From Segatella copri (lineage in GTDB: Bacteria; Bacteroidota; Bacteroidia; Bacteroidales; Bacteroidaceae), in NCBI RefSeq assembly GCF_009494395.1, contig NZ_VZCB01000076.1:62001-126000 (forward strand): a stretch of 64,000 bases of DNA, read 5' to 3'. Shown in pieces: positions 4,512 through 10,916 of the stretch. Within the stretch, counting starts at the first letter, position 1, and the number at the start of each line of letters is the position of its first letter. The notes beneath the pieces were generated by a model, which saw nothing but the letters and a program-made list of their open reading frames with translations, made no database searches and had not been told where the DNA came from. The position numbers and the translations under genes were made by a program.

Positions 4512-5933
4512 ATGTTGATAGGAAGAGAACAAGAGCAAGAGATGCTGCATAAAGCTTACGAGTCAGATAGCTCACAGTTTGTTGCAGTGTATGGTAGAAG
4601 ACGTGTGGGCAAGACCTATCTAGTCAGAGAGTGTTTTGCGGATAAATTCGTTTTTCAACATTCTGGTGTTGCAAAAGCAAGTACAAAATTGCAATTGCGT
4701 TATTTTAAGGAGTCGCTACTAAAGAGCGGATTCCCAAAGGCTCGTTTGCCCAAAGATTGGATAGAGGCTTTTTCGATGTTGGAGCAATTGATAGAGCAAT
4801 CAGAAGCTGAGAAGAAAGTAGTTTTCATAGATGAAATACCTTGGATGGATACTCCTCGCTCAAATTTCATTACAGCATTGGAATACTTTTGGAATAGTTT
4901 TGCCTCTGCACGCAAGGATGTCCTTTTGATTGTTTGTGGCTCTGCTACATCCTGGATTATTAATAAGGTGTTGAAAAATCATGGCGGTTTGCATAATAGA
5001 GTAAACCTCCGTATATCTTTACAACCTTTCACTTTGCACGAATGTGAACTGTATGCCAAAAGCATCGGTATGCGCACAACCCGTTATGAATTGCTGGAAT
5101 ATTATATGGTATTGGGTGGTGTTGCTTTCTATTGGTCTTTGTTGGACAAAGGAAAGAGCGTGGCTCAAAATATAGATAGCCTATTGTTCTCAATAACAGG
5201 TCAACTACACAATGAGTTTAACGAGTTGTATGATTCTTTGTTCAACAATCCTGAACCTTACCTGAAAGTTATCAACGTCTTGGGAACCATCAAGGTGGGA
5301 ATGCCTCGTACAGAACTGCTAGAAAAGATAGGATTGTCGAGTGGTGCCAATATCACTCGAATTCTTGACGACTTGGAAGCATGTGGCTTCATCCGTAAAT
5401 ACAATGCTTTTGGCAAGAAGCGGAATGATACTATTTATCAGCTGATAGACAACTTCACATTGTTCTACTTCAAGTTTATGAAAGACAATAAAGGTGGCGA
5501 TGAGCATTTCTGGTCGCATAGTTATTTGTCGCCTGTGAGATACACATGGGTTGGCTTGGCGTTTGAGCGAGTATGTATGCAACATGTAAATCAAATCAAG
5601 CACAAGTTAGGCATTAGTGGTGTCTTGACAAGTGTTTCTTCCTGGTCTGTCAAAGATGACCCTGTTTATGGTCAAGGTGCGCAAATTGACCTGTTGATAG
5701 AACGTGCAGATAATGTAGTGAATGTTTGCGAGATTAAGTTCTCGCAAGATAAATATGTCATTAGTCAGGACTATAGTCGGAATTTAGCACATAAGATAGA
5801 GCGTTTCTTGCAGACCACGAAGACCAGAAAGACTTTGCATCTCACAATGATAACAGTAAATGGTCTTGCTCATAATGAGTATTGGGGGATGGTGCAGAGC
5901 GAAGTCGTGGCAGATGACTTGTTTCATGAATAA
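4512..5933 (+). CDS. AAA-type ATPase with DUF234-like nuclease-fold C-terminus
   Basis: This 473-residue protein belongs to the archaeal-type ATPase_2 family, which occurs in many copies in Bacteroidota and whose role is unknown. It has a Walker A motif GRRRVGKT (28-35), a Walker B motif ending FIDE (D107, E108), a winged-helix middle region (about 250-310), and a C-terminal DUF234-like domain. That last domain carries QIDLLIER (D393) followed by E407-x-K409, the pattern of PD-(D/E)xK nucleases. It is a single gene between 22-bp direct repeats and next to a GH3 remnant, which suggests arrival as a small module. No signal peptide or membrane segment is seen. DNA binding or cleavage is inference from the fold. 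Confidence 0.85.
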   Translation: MLIGREQEQEMLHKAYESDSSQFVAVYGRRRVGKTYLVRECFADKFVFQHSGVAKASTKLQLRYFKESLLKSGFPKARLPKDWIEAFSMLEQLIEQSEAEKKVVFIDEIPWMDTPRSNFITALEYFWNSFASARKDVLLIVCGSATSWIINKVLKNHGGLHNRVNLRISLQPFTLHECELYAKSIGMRTTRYELLEYYMVLGGVAFYWSLLDKGKSVAQNIDSLLFSITGQLHNEFNELYDSLFNNPEPYLKVINVLGTIKVGMPRTELLEKIGLSSGANITRILDDLEACGFIRKYNAFGKKRNDTIYQLIDNFTLFYFKFMKDNKGGDEHFWSHSYLSPVRYTWVGLAFERVCMQHVNQIKHKLGISGVLTSVSSWSVKDDPVYGQGAQIDLLIERADNVVNVCEIKFSQDKYVISQDYSRNLAHKIERFLQTTKTRKTLHLTMITVNGLAHNEYWGMVQSEVVADDLFHE

Positions 5934-6128: not shown

Positions 6129-8681
6129 TTAGAAGGAATACTGGGCGGAAATCATCAGTTCGCGAGGGCGAAGATAATAGCTGTCAGTCAATGTACTGAT
6201 GCCGCTATAGATGGTTTCCATATAGTTCTTCTTGTTGAAAAGGTTTCGAAGCTCTGCAGAAAGGCGGAGCTTTTTCATTCTCCAAACTGCCGATGCATCG
6301 CCAAGGAGGGTGTTTAGGTGGTTGCCCTCTTGCAGTTCATTGCGATAATGTACGAGCGAGAAGGAGAGGTCTACATGGCTGATGGTAGCGGTGGCAGATA
6401 CGCTTTGACGCCAATTAAATAACGATGAGTTCGCCATTTTTTGACGTTTCGAGTTGTAAAAAGAGAATTCTCCCTCATAGCTAAAGGCACACCAGGACGG
6501 CGAGAAGTCGATGCTAGGCTTCACAGTATAGTTGTCGGCGGTGTAGCTGATGGCTTTGCCGCTGCTGTATTGCTCACCCTTGCTGTAGTTGTAACTGCCC
6601 TCCAGGCGGGTCTTCAGATGAAGGTCGTAGAAACCCTTGGAGATATAGAGCGAACCTCCGATGTTGTTGCTCTTGCTGTCCTGCTTATATAATGAGGTAT
6701 AGTATTTGCCATCCACGATGCGTAGGTCGGATGCCGTGTTCATCCAGTTTTTGCTGGCATTGACCGATGCGCTGAAGAAGATTTCCTTGATAGGGCGCTT
6801 GTAGTCGTAACTCAACTTACCATAAAGAGAGCGGGTTATCGGAATGATGTCGCTCGAAGTGTACCAAGAGCGATAACTTTTGCGATATTGCTTTATGGCG
6901 TAGTTGGTGGCATTGCCTGTTCCTGTACTGTATCCTGTGTAGATAGTCAACTCTCTACGGAAATCCAATTTCTTATATAAGTAAAGGTAGGGTGATATGG
7001 TAAGTAGAGTTTTCTGTGGATAGGTGAAGCGTTCCCAGATGAAATCGGGAGAGAACGACATACGGAACGTCTCGGTCTTGTATTGCCAGTAAGGGGTGAA
7101 CTTCCCTGTGATGTTAAGGCTGTTTTTGCCGATTTCATCGTGGCTGTTTCCGATGAATCCGTTGTTTTTGCCGATTTTATCGCTTCTTTCCTGATATTTC
7201 GCATAGATGTTGTTGAGGTCGATACTCATTCTATATTCCTGTGTCCAGTGGAAGCGATTCCTCATCCACTGTAAGGCGTGGGCAGTATGCCAAAGGTTGG
7301 TGCGGATACGATTGCGGTCGTCATTAACGTAAAGGTCTGCCACACCATGGTGATAGTCGGCAGTGCTGCGCCAAGAGAGTTGGCTTTTCTTGAAGACGAA
7401 GAGGCGGTAGATACTTGCCGAGAGGTCGAGCTTTGGGATGCGGACACGTTGGGTAAGCGTGTCGTTGATGTTTGACAAACCATCGTTTTGTGCTGCGCTG
7501 AGGCTGATGCTCTCGTTGCCATAATGCTCAGCCTTGTTTACCTTGTTCTCCCATTGCAGATTGAAGGCATCGCTGATCATCGTCTTGTGGTTGTGCTCCG
7601 TGGTAACTGTGGGAGCTTCGCCGCCGAGGTCGTAGATACTCATGTTCTCTCGCTCTTGTCTGGTTACCGTACGAAGATAGTTGGCTTCTATGCGAGTCTC
7701 TGCATCGTCCTTGTTCTTCTTGATATGGTTGATGGAGTATTTTTGCGAGGTGTTGAAGCGCAGGCGTTCTTCATCGATAGGAGCGTCAAGCGATGGTACT
7801 GATATCCATGATGGAAGGGAGGCAGGAGCCAGACGATTGCTGTAAGATGCAAGTTGGTTAAGTGCATAGCCGAGATTTTTGCCTGTTCTGTCGTATTCTG
7901 CATCATACATCATCTGTTTCTTCTTGCCAATTTGCATGATATTGATGCTTCCGCCTACGTGGGACGGATGCCCTACGAGCATGTAAGGCTTGAGGGTGGG
8001 CATCAGTTTGTCGCGAGCACTATCTTTCAGGGCGATGTTCATCGCTACATTATCTGTAAAGGTCTTGTTCTGGAGCGCCTTGATAGGCTGGTCATGCTCG
8101 ATGACTTCGGCCTTTTTCACATCTTTTGCCTTGATGTTTTCTTCTAGCTGGTTGTATTTGCCACCAGTCAGGTCGAGTCCTTCCACGGTGAATCTATTGA
8201 TAGGTTTACCATTGTAATTGATACGGCCATTCTTCTCTATATCCACGCCTGGCAGCTTTTTCAATACATCCTTCAGACTGTTGTCTCGTTCGTTGGCAAA
8301 GCGGGTGAGATCGAAAGATATGGTGTCTCGACCTGTGATGCGAGAGCCTTTCACCTGTACTTCCTTCAAGACAAAAGCTGTTGAAGCCATACTGATGATG
8401 GTTTCTTTTCCCGATGAAACCGCCGTTTTTTGCTTTTTATAGCCCATATAGGAAGCTTGCAGCATATCGCCAGTTTGCTTTTGTGCTATGGGAATCAGGA
8501 AAGTTCCGTCTTCCTTGCTGCGTGTAAACTTCAAGGGCTTTCCATTGCGCAGCAGAGTAACTGATACGTTGGCCAGGCGGTTGTGTGTAAGTGAATCTTC
8601 CACATAACCGCTAATCTTCTCTTGGGCAAACGCATGGCAAGCCATGAATAGAATGGTGAAAAGAACTATTATTTTCTTCAT
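6129..8681 (-). CDS. TonB-dependent outer-membrane receptor-like protein with carboxypeptidase-regulatory-like domain
   Basis: The 850-residue protein has a signal peptide (to about residue 20, AFAQ), a carboxypeptidase-D regulatory-like domain (about 22-100), a plug region (about 110-220, with DVLKKLPGVDIEKNG), and a long beta-barrel ending in aromatic Phe (QYSF), as outer-membrane barrels do. It is the non-SusC type: there is no SusD partner, and a GLPGLI gene lies 88 nt upstream on the same strand. In Bacteroidota such pairs are recurrent and are thought to handle a small ligand, metal or peptide; the substrate is unknown. Probably co-transcribed with the GLPGLI gene and possibly controlled by the divergent regulator at 9837. 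Confidence 0.85.
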   Translation of the reverse strand: MKKIIVLFTILFMACHAFAQEKISGYVEDSLTHNRLANVSVTLLRNGKPLKFTRSKEDGTFLIPIAQKQTGDMLQASYMGYKKQKTAVSSGKETIISMASTAFVLKEVQVKGSRITGRDTISFDLTRFANERDNSLKDVLKKLPGVDIEKNGRINYNGKPINRFTVEGLDLTGGKYNQLEENIKAKDVKKAEVIEHDQPIKALQNKTFTDNVAMNIALKDSARDKLMPTLKPYMLVGHPSHVGGSINIMQIGKKKQMMYDAEYDRTGKNLGYALNQLASYSNRLAPASLPSWISVPSLDAPIDEERLRFNTSQKYSINHIKKNKDDAETRIEANYLRTVTRQERENMSIYDLGGEAPTVTTEHNHKTMISDAFNLQWENKVNKAEHYGNESISLSAAQNDGLSNINDTLTQRVRIPKLDLSASIYRLFVFKKSQLSWRSTADYHHGVADLYVNDDRNRIRTNLWHTAHALQWMRNRFHWTQEYRMSIDLNNIYAKYQERSDKIGKNNGFIGNSHDEIGKNSLNITGKFTPYWQYKTETFRMSFSPDFIWERFTYPQKTLLTISPYLYLYKKLDFRRELTIYTGYSTGTGNATNYAIKQYRKSYRSWYTSSDIIPITRSLYGKLSYDYKRPIKEIFFSASVNASKNWMNTASDLRIVDGKYYTSLYKQDSKSNNIGGSLYISKGFYDLHLKTRLEGSYNYSKGEQYSSGKAISYTADNYTVKPSIDFSPSWCAFSYEGEFSFYNSKRQKMANSSLFNWRQSVSATATISHVDLSFSLVHYRNELQEGNHLNTLLGDASAVWRMKKLRLSAELRNLFNKKNYMETIYSGISTLTDSYYLRPRELMISAQYSF

Positions 8682-8769: not shown

Positions 8770-9633
8770 TTATCTTTCAATCGGATTGTATGGCTCAGCA
8801 CGCTTGGAATGCTTCAGGATATTTCCTTTTTCATCCTTGATCTTTACAATTGCAGCATACTTGGCATCTTGAAGCAGATAGCCGATAGGGTCGGCATAGT
8901 ATTTTTTGTAAATGGAGGTCAATGATTTGCGGTCGATAGGCTCGAAAGTCTTACCTTTATAATAGATAGGTATGGAGCCTTTGCCTGTTGTGAGTCCTAC
9001 AGCTGTAAATCCATAATCGTTCTCGGAGTCGTGAACCTTGAGAATCAATCCCGGCAGTCCGCTCAGCTTCCAGGGACCATTGTCAATAGGGATGTCTTCC
9101 GTGTACCATGCAATCCATGTTCTACCCTTAAACTTGGCAATAGCCTGGTGGCACTCGTAACCGCAGATGGAATCGATGCTGTCAGTGAGTTGCCAGTCTA
9201 TCGGTTCCATCGGTTCAATGCACACATATCTGTCGGCTGCAAAGAAATCGAGATAGGCAGTCTTGCCCTGTTCTGGATAGTTCTTATATACTTTCCAATT
9301 AATCTGTCCGCCATTACCGGAGAAATTGACTGGTATTCCTTTTGCCATATTTGCGGAGATGGTAGAGTCTCTTTGGAATATCGGATAACTGTAGAATGCG
9401 GAATACTTGTTGCCAATCTGCAAGAGCATTTTCTCTTCGATGCGGCCAATGAGGGTGTCGGTCTTGGTATATTTCTTTTCGTAAATATACTCGGCATTAT
9501 ATACTACCTGATACTTTACCTGATCAATGGAATCTCCCATGCCAATGCTTGATTCATCGAACAGGTTTACTGTTTGAGCTTGGAGCATGCAAGCATATAA
9601 TGCAAGCCATGCTATTAATAATACCTTTTTCAT
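8770..9633 (-). CDS. GLPGLI family protein
   Basis: The 287-residue secreted protein (signal peptide to about residue 19, MLQAQ) contains the family's name motif in LSGLPGLILKVHDSENDYGF at about residues 192-211. GLPGLI proteins are specific to Bacteroidota, are exported, and usually sit beside TonB-dependent receptors of the type found here. Their function is not known. A -7 box TACCTTTGC on the minus strand (plus 9684-9692) lies about 50 nt before the start and likely drives this gene and the receptor; its -33 element is weak. Confidence 0.9.
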   Translation of the reverse strand: MKKVLLIAWLALYACMLQAQTVNLFDESSIGMGDSIDQVKYQVVYNAEYIYEKKYTKTDTLIGRIEEKMLLQIGNKYSAFYSYPIFQRDSTISANMAKGIPVNFSGNGGQINWKVYKNYPEQGKTAYLDFFAADRYVCIEPMEPIDWQLTDSIDSICGYECHQAIAKFKGRTWIAWYTEDIPIDNGPWKLSGLPGLILKVHDSENDYGFTAVGLTTGKGSIPIYYKGKTFEPIDRKSLTSIYKKYYADPIGYLLQDAKYAAIVKIKDEKGNILKHSKRAEPYNPIER

Positions 9634-9836
9634 AATCTTCGTCTATTATTCATTATTTTATCTGTTTCTTTCGTTTTTGTGATGCAAAGGTACTGAGATC
9701 ATCCGATGAAATCGATGATTTCTGTTACTGAGTTATTACTTTTGCTTCTTTTCGCCTATTATTATTTTATTACTCTTGCCTTTGTTTACGGATTTTTCAG
9801 TAACTTTGCCGTCAAAATTCAAAAGATTAGGAAAGT
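9634..9836. promoter_or_regulatory. Divergent promoter region between the GLPGLI operon and the membrane regulator
   Basis: The minus strand has TACCTTTGC at 9684-9692 for the GLPGLI/receptor pair. The plus strand has TAACTTTGC at 9801-9809 for the regulator gene, with a TTTG at 9781-9784 that is closer than usual (16 bp). The DNA between the two boxes is where a regulator of both units would be expected to bind. I see no clear dyad there. Confidence 0.55.
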
Positions 9837-10916
9837 ATGAACAGTAACAGTAAGCTGAAAATAGTATGGATGGTATGTGGAGTAGCAATCGCATTGTTGT
9901 TCTGCACGCAGGCTTATTGGCTCCATCTTCAATGTCAATATAGCTTAGACCAGCAGGTAGAGCAATTCAAGAGGGATTGTGATGAGGTGTTGGCGCAAGA
10001 TTTGAAGAATAGGAAAAAACTGCAGGAGAATTCATCTACAAAAGGTAGAAGAGATACGGTTATGCTCAAGGTAGAAACTCAATTTGATATGAAGAAGGGA
10101 TGTAGTCGTAATACGCTTTCTTTTTGGAACAATCATCGTTTTCTTGTCCGTTTGAATGATCCTGATCTTACGGGTGATGATGCTTATCTCATCATTAGCA
10201 GATATCTGGCTAATATAGGTAAGCATCCTTCCTTGGCTGCCTATCAAAGATTGCTGGATGATAAGGGATATGGAAAGATATCCTCTTTTCGACATCTGGA
10301 TTATAAGACTGTCTTCCTGGATGCAAGATATGATGTCGAAGGTAGATGGTCACGTCTAGTGACAGTGAAATATCAGACGAACCCAATGTTTCGCCAAGGT
10401 ATTTCCTTTCAGGTGCCCATTCCTATTACTCGAACGCTCAAAGCCATGATGTGGCAATTGATAGGAAGCATCTTTCTCTTTTTCATCTTGATAGAATGTC
10501 TGTATTATCTGGTTAAGACCATAGTCTTCCAGAAACGCATTGATGGCATTCGCCATGAGTTCCTGAAGAATATGATTTATGAGTTGAAGCAACCGAAAGA
10601 AGACGACAAAGGTGAAGAAACTGCTGTTTTTATCGGTTCCATAGCTTTCTACTATGCGCAGAATGAACTGCAATGTGGTAATTCCAGAGTAGTCATCACA
10701 TCTCGTCAAGCTGAAATTCTGAAGCTTCTTGCCGAGAACCAGAACCAGCTTGTAGAGCGGGATTTCATACTGAATGAAGTATGGGGTGATGACTCATACT
10801 CCAATTCCCTTGCCCTGAACGTGCAGATTACCTATCTTCGCCGGGCATTGAACCTGGATGAAAAGGTAAGTATCGAAGCTGTCATCAAGAAGGGATATAT
10901 CCTGCGAACCTGTTGA
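9837..10916 (+). CDS. Membrane-anchored winged-helix regulator derived from a histidine kinase
   Basis: The 359-residue protein has a first membrane segment (about 9-27), a periplasmic region (about 28-200) and a second membrane segment (about 204-226). A dimerisation-helix remnant HEFLKNMIYELKQP (about 240-253) follows, then an OmpR-type winged helix (about 283-357, with LKLLAENQNQLVERDFIL and the wing KKGYIL). The first part resembles sensor kinases of the RprX type, but the position of the phospho-accepting His (NMTHELKTP in relatives) is Y248, and the ATP-binding domain and the receiver are absent. It is therefore a ToxR-like one-component regulator in the inner membrane. Divergent placement suggests that it controls the GLPGLI/TonB pair. 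Confidence 0.8.
   Translation: MNSNSKLKIVWMVCGVAIALLFCTQAYWLHLQCQYSLDQQVEQFKRDCDEVLAQDLKNRKKLQENSSTKGRRDTVMLKVETQFDMKKGCSRNTLSFWNNHRFLVRLNDPDLTGDDAYLIISRYLANIGKHPSLAAYQRLLDDKGYGKISSFRHLDYKTVFLDARYDVEGRWSRLVTVKYQTNPMFRQGISFQVPIPITRTLKAMMWQLIGSIFLFFILIECLYYLVKTIVFQKRIDGIRHEFLKNMIYELKQPKEDDKGEETAVFIGSIAFYYAQNELQCGNSRVVITSRQAEILKLLAENQNQLVERDFILNEVWGDDSYSNSLALNVQITYLRRALNLDEKVSIEAVIKKGYILRTC

Follow-up and report, generated by a model that had tools for sequence, protein, structure and literature searches.

A probable collapse of a two-component system into a membrane-anchored, OmpR-headed regulator at a GLPGLI locus of Segatella copri

Introduction

Can a gene that joins the sensory half of a histidine kinase directly to a winged-helix DNA-binding domain encode a working regulator, and where would such a gene have come from? 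The question is raised by a 64,000-nucleotide stretch of Segatella copri DNA (contig NZ_VZCB01000076.1, positions 62,001 to 126,000; hereafter the window, whose own coordinates are used throughout), which encodes a protein of 359 residues on the forward strand at 9837..10916. A sequence-only reading of this gene had proposed a kinase turned into a membrane-bound transcription factor, which would carry a signal from the periplasm to DNA without phosphotransfer. Judged by homology, synteny and trees, the protein is composed of the input half of a sensor kinase (residues ~1-253) and the linker and winged helix of a response regulator (~264-358), it descends from both, and it has lost their catalytic parts. 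Probably, a two-component system collapsed here into a one-component, membrane-anchored regulator of the divergent operon, which encodes a GLPGLI family protein and a predicted outer-membrane protein, and of itself.

A sensor half and a DNA-binding head in one polypeptide

In a Pfam scan, the sole match of the window protein is Trans_reg_C at residues 284-356 (59.2 bits, cut-off 26.2). Likewise, Trans_reg_C was found in 20/20 aligned members of the fusion family described below, and HisKA, HATPase_c and Response_reg were absent from all 20, in agreement with the proposed loss of the ATPase and receiver domains. HisKA also stays under its gathering threshold in three relative kinases, all of which contain HATPase_c, so that the evidence for the loss of HisKA is the alignment of the H-box.

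An AlphaFold monomer model with the family alignment as input (pLDDT 81.9, pTM 0.56) places, in order, a helix at 3-67, an alpha-beta domain, an unbroken helix at 199-251, a linker and a winged helix. Read together with the sequence, the model predicts a first membrane segment at residues ~7-33 (9855..9935, forward strand, as are all features of this gene), a hydrophobic stretch inside the helix 3-67, followed by an alpha-beta periplasmic domain (~34-198; 9936..10430) that is homologous to the input domain of kinases at the same locus in other genomes. The helix 199-251 (10431..10589) would contain the second membrane segment and, according to model and alignment, runs into a stub of DHp helix 1. 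Within this stub lies codon 248 (TAT, Tyr; 10578..10580), which occupies the phospho-His position of the H-box within NMIYELKQP, as sequence and alignment agree. The fusion joint is a variable linker (residues ~254-263; 10596..10625; pLDDT <50 at 255-260), and the remainder (10626..10910) is the response regulator linker with an OmpR/PhoB winged helix, recognized by Pfam, model and structural matches. Thus, the anatomy first read from the letters, i.e., two membrane segments around a periplasmic domain and an OmpR-type head, is recovered by the Pfam scan and the predicted structure.

The modelled winged helix resembles the heads of SaeR, CadC, PhoB and ToxR (Z 13.9-14.7; CadC 14.5, ToxR 14.0). 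Modelled alone, the periplasmic domain reaches a pLDDT of 87.4 and a pTM of 0.82; a Foldseek search with it returned no match at E ≤0.001 (the top rows were MHC class II chains with TM-scores of ~0.18), and the best match in a second structural search was a dCache ligand-binding domain, a weak resemblance (Z 5.1); from the lack of a closer match nothing follows. A DNA-binding domain and a membrane segment in one polypeptide place the protein among the transmembrane transcription regulators in the broad sense used in the accessible text of PMC10269533. As a sensor histidine kinase it has the homologous input domain and membrane segments and lacks the phospho-His and HATPase_c, and as an OmpR/PhoB response regulator it has Trans_reg_C and lacks the receiver (20/20 without).

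A family of fusions under purifying selection

A full-length relative was found in 6 of 200 genomes in a search of the genus and in 5 of 399 genomes in a sample of the family, the genome of the window being counted in both. A profile scan of genome contigs, in which the best 80 of 119 relatives were kept, had fusions as its 20 strongest loci (L081-L100); together with the window and L043 these make 22 distinct fusion loci. The hosts belong to Segatella, Prevotella, Hoylesella, Xylanibacter, Marseilla and other Prevotellaceae and Bacteroidales, and include Phocaeicola paurosaccharolyticus; Phocaeicola contributes one locus, and the rest come from relatives of Segatella and Prevotella. The nearest relative among the best 80 of 119 is in S. 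copri strain Indica (95% identity). The reading frame is intact in 21 of the 22 loci, L100 being frameshifted; L100 is kept in the counts of loci, repeats and H-boxes and excluded from the trees, the 20-member alignment (from which L043 is also excluded) and the count of Cys48. The search of further Bacteroidota genomes that the sequence-only reading had called for thus yielded 21 more loci, and no family member examined keeps the His and a kinase domain. Both a chance open reading frame or assembly artefact and a truncation confined to the window are excluded by this family, since all 21 further loci have the identical architecture (one of them frameshifted).

At the phospho-His position, 15 of the 22 loci have Tyr and seven have Phe, whereas His is kept in 23/23 relative kinases. 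The Tyr is as first described for the window, and its use as a phospho-tyrosine switch is rejected in view of the seven loci with Phe. The H-box of the fusions reads mostly MI[YF]E[LM]KQP, with MIYDMKKP in L085, KRP in L096 and KQS in L098.

Comparison of the window gene with this nearest relative, L081 (Nei-Gojobori, one pair), gives rates of nonsynonymous (dN) and synonymous (dS) substitution of 0.024 and 0.171 over the whole gene, i.e., a dN/dS of 0.14. The ratio is 0.30 for the DNA-binding part and 0.12 for the remainder (~0.12 for residues 31-200). These values indicate purifying selection on the fusion gene, weaker in its DNA-binding part. The recognition-helix region is nearly invariant across the aligned fusions, as are, in all 20 of them, the periplasmic residues C48, R59, N182 and P183. 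Additionally, over 9837-10913, dS in this pair is ~0.24 for residues 1-257 and 0.04 for residues 258-359, a difference for which recombination or conversion affecting the DNA-binding part may be responsible.

Descent from a neighbouring kinase-regulator pair

A profile of the fused protein matches two adjoining genes in 11 genomes from the family sample, its residues 1-257 a kinase and its residues 256-357 the adjoining regulator, each at E ≤1e-37; in the two pairs worked out, the matches are 996 nt (G420) and 1002 nt (G278) apart. The fused sequence follows the kinase through the H-box, which reads MIHELKRP in the relative kinases, and then passes directly into the post-receiver linker of the response regulator (IG.T.F.Y..NEL..ITSRQAEIL) and its winged helix. 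For comparison, a set of 13 two-component loci (L161-L173) was assembled from genomes of the same family without the fusion, in which the GLPGLI gene is present and both halves are close. Excluded from this set were L176, which has the GLPGLI and outer-membrane genes and is more distant, L174 and L175, which showed no GLPGLI gene, L177, which has an outer-membrane match only, and L178, which has a response regulator only.

Without the second membrane segment and the DHp stub with its H-box, the N-terminal half aligns with the 13 same-locus kinases at 99.9% and E 9.8e-36 (hhalign), with another group of Bacteroidales kinases at 99.4% (E 2.4e-21) and with kinases of the type found in a paralogous pair termed C29 at 98.7% (E 2.2e-16). 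When the query is restricted to the periplasmic domain, the same-locus kinases are again preferred (98.1%, E 1.1e-13) over two other groups of kinases. In line with these results, the fusions form a single clade both in the tree of N-terminal halves (43 rows; support 100/99), in which the backbone is unresolved, and in that of C-terminal halves (45 rows; 98/98). In the latter tree, the fusions, the 13 same-locus response regulators and two of C29 type cluster at 98/95, with the other response regulators outside (L050, a partial kinase, and L178 were excluded from the trees). The kinase ancestry that had been proposed for the N-terminal half is therefore backed by profile alignment, synteny and trees.

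The comparison that had been drawn with kinases of RprX type needs one correction. Among curated profiles, RprY scores best against both the fusion head and three relative response regulators, but its equivalog cut-off of 370 bits is reached neither by the fusion (61.9 bits) nor by the three regulators (155.7-166.0 bits). Strict descent from RprX/RprY proper is therefore rejected; the pair at the GLPGLI locus is RprY-like, another member of the superfamily. Because the donor is this specific neighbouring kinase-regulator pair, both halves derive from one operon. Furthermore, since the fusion replaces the pair at its locus and each half forms one clade, its origin is most likely, on the simplest reading, a deletion of ~1 kb inside the kinase-regulator operon.

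The divergent genes and an operator-like repeat

The probable target of the regulator lies on the reverse strand, and consists of the gene for a GLPGLI family protein (8770..9633; TIGR01200, 187.5 bits, cut-off 50), the divergent neighbour of the fusion gene, and, next to it, the gene for a predicted outer-membrane protein of 850 residues (6129..8681), the second of the probable operon. An N-terminal match of the latter protein to a CarboxypepD_reg-like domain (30.5 bits) falls under the cut-off of 32.2. The fusion is divergent to a GLPGLI gene in 22/22 loci, and the outer-membrane gene was found in 21 of them, L083 stopping at a contig edge; next to the fusion, L096 has a short version of this gene and L098 has it divided between two open reading frames, through either assembly error or decay. 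Among the two-component loci fetched, the GLPGLI gene is divergent to the kinase in 14/18, and this count and the fusion loci are independent evidence of linkage, unlike the 13/13 of the comparison set, which was picked with GLPGLI in view. The outer-membrane gene is present in 13/13 loci of that set. The TIGR01200 check was applied to the GLPGLI protein of the window; in the relatives, the GLPGLI and outer-membrane genes were called with profiles that drew on eight and four neighbouring genes, respectively, part of which belong to these very loci. Further along, S. copri Indica has at least one more GLPGLI-like gene after the outer-membrane gene (L040:14452-18089), where the window has an open reading frame for an ATPase-looking protein of 473 residues (4512-5933).

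The intergenic regions contain a tandem repeat, TATTAC-N5-TATTAY, with a period of 11 bp, which was first spotted by eye and counted afterwards. When no more than one mismatch is allowed, a pair is present in 16/22 fusion intergenic regions, against 0.07 expected from dinucleotide shuffles, and in 9/9 two-component regions tested, against 0.01 expected; the nine are those of the 13 that remain after L161, L162 and L164, whose starts were mis-set, and L171, which repeats L170. When sites were scored with a matrix built from the 13 two-component sites, with the threshold set where the best site reaches it in 1% of shuffled regions, exactly one pair was found in 13/13 loci of the comparison set. 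The fusion loci have two or more pairs in 16/22 cases, one in 5/22 and none in 1/22 (L097, which has two diverged TCTTAC pairs). A doubled repeat is not exclusive to fusions, since the two-component locus L176 carries four half-sites in a row.

In the window, two putative operators lie on the forward strand, pair 1 (TGTTACTGAGTTATTAC) at 9723..9739 and pair 2 (TATTATTATTTTATTAC) at 9757..9773. Putative -7 promoter boxes that fit the consensus TAnnTTTG given in the accessible text of PMC7366714 lie at 9685..9692 on the reverse strand for the GLPGLI gene (TACCTTTG) and at 9801..9808 on the forward strand for the regulator (TAACTTTG); another match to this consensus, at 9737, falls within pair 1. 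Pair 1 is 38 bp from the GLPGLI box, a position common to the two-component loci, and pair 2, the extra pair of most fusion loci, is 44 bp from the regulator box. A strict GLPGLI -7 box is missing in two two-component and four fusion loci; where it exists, a pair on the GLPGLI side stands 38-39 bp from it in 11/11 two-component and 15/18 fusion loci. The sole pair of the comparison set sits 66-68 bp from the regulator -7 box in 13/13 loci, and 16/22 fusion loci have a pair 44-45 bp from that box. Judged by these spacings, therefore, the old site was mostly kept and another arose near the promoter of the fusion itself.

Related pairs whose sensors differ (L046, L047, L048 and L174-L177) also have the pattern TATTAC-N5-TATTAC next to their kinase gene, and the repeat thus seems to mark the whole regulator family. 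A further motif, GATGAAA, is present in the intergenic region of 13/22 fusion loci and 1/13 two-component loci (L162); by eye, its usual place is the interval that separates the GLPGLI -7 box from the first repeat pair (window region 9634-9836).

A cysteine acquired by the fusions

Cys48 (9978..9980), in the periplasmic helix that follows the first membrane segment, is present in 21/21 intact fusions, in 0/13 same-locus kinases and in 0/10 other kinases, among them L050, a partial sequence that does not cover the region; the cysteine is also seen in the first piece of the frameshifted L100. In L083, L085, L090 and L095 it is the sole periplasmic cysteine, so that there it could pair only with another molecule. 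This distribution fits a covalent or redox-gated dimer, with the limit that the cysteine is a single evolutionary event. It is possible, although rather doubtful, that the loss of the phosphorelay was compensated in two ways, with the invariant Cys48 forming or gating a covalent dimer, as a substitute for dimerization driven by phosphorylation, and the second tandem operator serving as a cooperative platform and as the site at the own promoter. The four half-sites of the two-component L176 led us to weigh this proposal slightly lower. If true, this would be a natural way of converting a two-component system into a one-component regulator that is gated by redox state or by a ligand.

Cysteines also differ in the GLPGLI proteins, in which three cysteine columns are occupied in 0, 1 and 0 of 22 fusion loci compared with 11, 11 and 9 of 13 two-component loci; a single cysteine is left in the GLPGLI proteins of L093, L094 and L097. 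No pairing with a conserved cysteine of the GLPGLI partner is claimed, since C164 occurs in both fusion and two-component loci.

How the fused protein could work, and what else it could be

The collapse of a two-component system into a one-component regulator, which we favour with good but incomplete confidence, would have started from an operon in which the gene of a sensor kinase preceded that of an OmpR/PhoB response regulator, divergent to the GLPGLI and outer-membrane genes. Loss of ~1 kb from just past the kinase H-box to the end of the receiver would have joined the sensor, the transmembrane helices and the DHp stub to the winged helix. The fused protein would remain bound to the membrane as a dimer held through the second transmembrane and DHp helix, and a periplasmic signal could reach the winged helices mechanically via the second membrane segment, altering their relative position or affinity without phosphotransfer. 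The heads presumably bind the TATTAC-N5-TATTAY repeats, whose presence and spacing are observed. From a site upstream of its promoter the GLPGLI/outer-membrane operon would be activated, and through the second repeat pair the regulator could control its own promoter; a disulphide at Cys48 may lock or gate the dimer.

Several observations weigh against this reading. The DNA-binding part, taken alone, has the higher dN/dS (0.30), and the monomer model, with its pTM of 0.56, says nothing on dimerization. L082, L083 and L084 have a GLPGLI box and no over-threshold pair on the GLPGLI side, the two-component locus L176 shares the row of four half-sites, the repeat motif and its threshold were picked after viewing the sequences, and many rows are near relatives, so that the counts of repeats and loci are not independent. 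In the N-half tree the backbone is unresolved and the chosen outgroup does not fall on one side of a branch, and in the C-half tree the response regulator group opposite the fusions reaches only 92/76, with long branches flagged; because of this weak backbone and sister support, it is mainly synteny and profile scores that tie the fusions to the same-locus pair. Finally, the strict pattern, which covers pair 1 of the window and not pair 2, has six matches in the 3.93-Mb genome of the window, against five for a reversed control. A large regulon with the repeat is rejected on these counts, which suggest that the fusion is a local regulator.

The protein could instead be blind to any signal, a tethered repressor or decoy that is bound to its operator at all times, blocking the promoter or titrating it, with the sensor half as a mere anchor. 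A pair 44-45 bp from the own -7 box, as in 16/22 fusion loci, is where binding could hinder the regulator promoter, but the low dN/dS of the periplasmic domain (~0.12 for residues 31-200, one pair) and its invariant residues exceed the needs of an anchor, and the GLPGLI-side pair holds the two-component spacing in 15/18 loci; we therefore judge this explanation unlikely, while granting it some weight. Decay of the same locus into a functionless two-component remnant that drifts to loss would account for the patchy distribution (6/200 genus and 5/399 family genomes) and the frameshift of L100, and has a parallel in Neisseria, where nps/npa are fused in the gonococcus and truncated genes in the meningococcus, according to the accessible text of PMC6528607. 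With intact frames in 21/22 loci over several genera, a dN/dS of 0.14, a nearly invariant recognition-helix region and the repeats kept, such drift is very improbable.

Co-regulation with an intact response regulator or kinase encoded elsewhere, e.g., the paralogous C29 pair, draws on the C29 response regulator being, apart from the fusion gene, the best match in the own genome (50% identity over 251-357, among the matches listed) and on a related repeat, CATTACTGAAACATTAC, at the C29 locus. Little credence is given to it, as the half-sites differ (CATTAC versus TATTAY), which looks like a separation of targets, the C29 pair owns its divergent outer-membrane gene, and the fusion genomes G186, G160, G075 and G137 are without an equally strong match among the matches listed. 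The CATTACTGAAACATTAC variant at the C29 promoter perhaps keeps the two regulators apart. The C29 pair itself (L039:9045-11184, in the genome of the window) is divergent to an open reading frame of 761 residues that resembles an outer-membrane protein. Signal-triggered cleavage, by which the cytoplasmic head (after ~250) would be freed as a soluble regulator, would be compatible with a joint that varies in sequence and length and is modelled at pLDDT <50 at 255-260; the linker, however, has no motif conserved by eye, a protease in the neighbourhood was not searched for, and we attach next to no weight to this route.

Relation to known membrane-bound regulators

Regulators of the ToxR/CadC type have an N-terminal winged helix, a single membrane helix and a C-terminal periplasmic domain. 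The fusion likewise has an OmpR-type winged helix anchored in the membrane, which would need no phosphotransfer to act, and differs in having its sensor first and its head last (284-356 of 359), two membrane segments and a sensor derived from a kinase. The hybrid two-component regulators of Bacteroides also combine a sensor with a DNA-binding part in a single membrane protein, but this protein contains, in addition, HisKA, HATPase_c and a receiver, none of which was found in the fusions (20/20). As far as the accessible text on it describes, ChiS of Vibrio cholerae is comparable, since this hybrid sensor kinase is itself a DNA-binding protein and exerts its regulation from within the membrane. 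ChiS retains its kinase and receiver domains, and its DNA-binding domain is of another type.

The closest precedent is Rsp of Neisseria gonorrhoeae, which the accessible texts describe as a chimera of the receptor half of PilS and the DNA-binding half of PilR (PMC10269533, PMC6528607). In both cases, a locus that holds an intact pair in relatives encodes instead the receptor half of the kinase joined to the DNA-binding domain of its neighbouring regulator. Rsp differs in its head, a PilR-type activator instead of an OmpR/PhoB winged helix, and in its membrane part, which has six helices with short loops instead of two segments around a periplasmic domain; moreover, the fusion family spans several genera with conserved repeats and partner genes. 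No homology to Rsp is claimed. On the role of Rsp, the accessible texts differ, with repression of pilA in PMC10269533 and no apparent action on pilE transcription in PMC6528607. The former, a census of 2023, considers descent of membrane-bound transcription factors from two-component systems possible and, in its accessible text, cites one chimera.

The architecture had been called poorly described at the outset, which is right insofar as it is rare and no description of this fusion family was found in the open-licence literature; as a kind, it is already known, because Rsp precedes it. The fusions form a family of transmembrane regulators derived from a two-component system, headed by an OmpR-type domain and provided with a syntenic intact counterpart.

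Concluding remarks

At this locus, the states before and after are found in one place, with the same divergent genes and a recognizable repeat, in many genomes. What the removal of phosphotransfer does while sensor, promoter and target stay equal thereby becomes a directly testable question. One locus of gut bacteria thus displays the simplification of a regulatory circuit, apparently with its DNA target retained.
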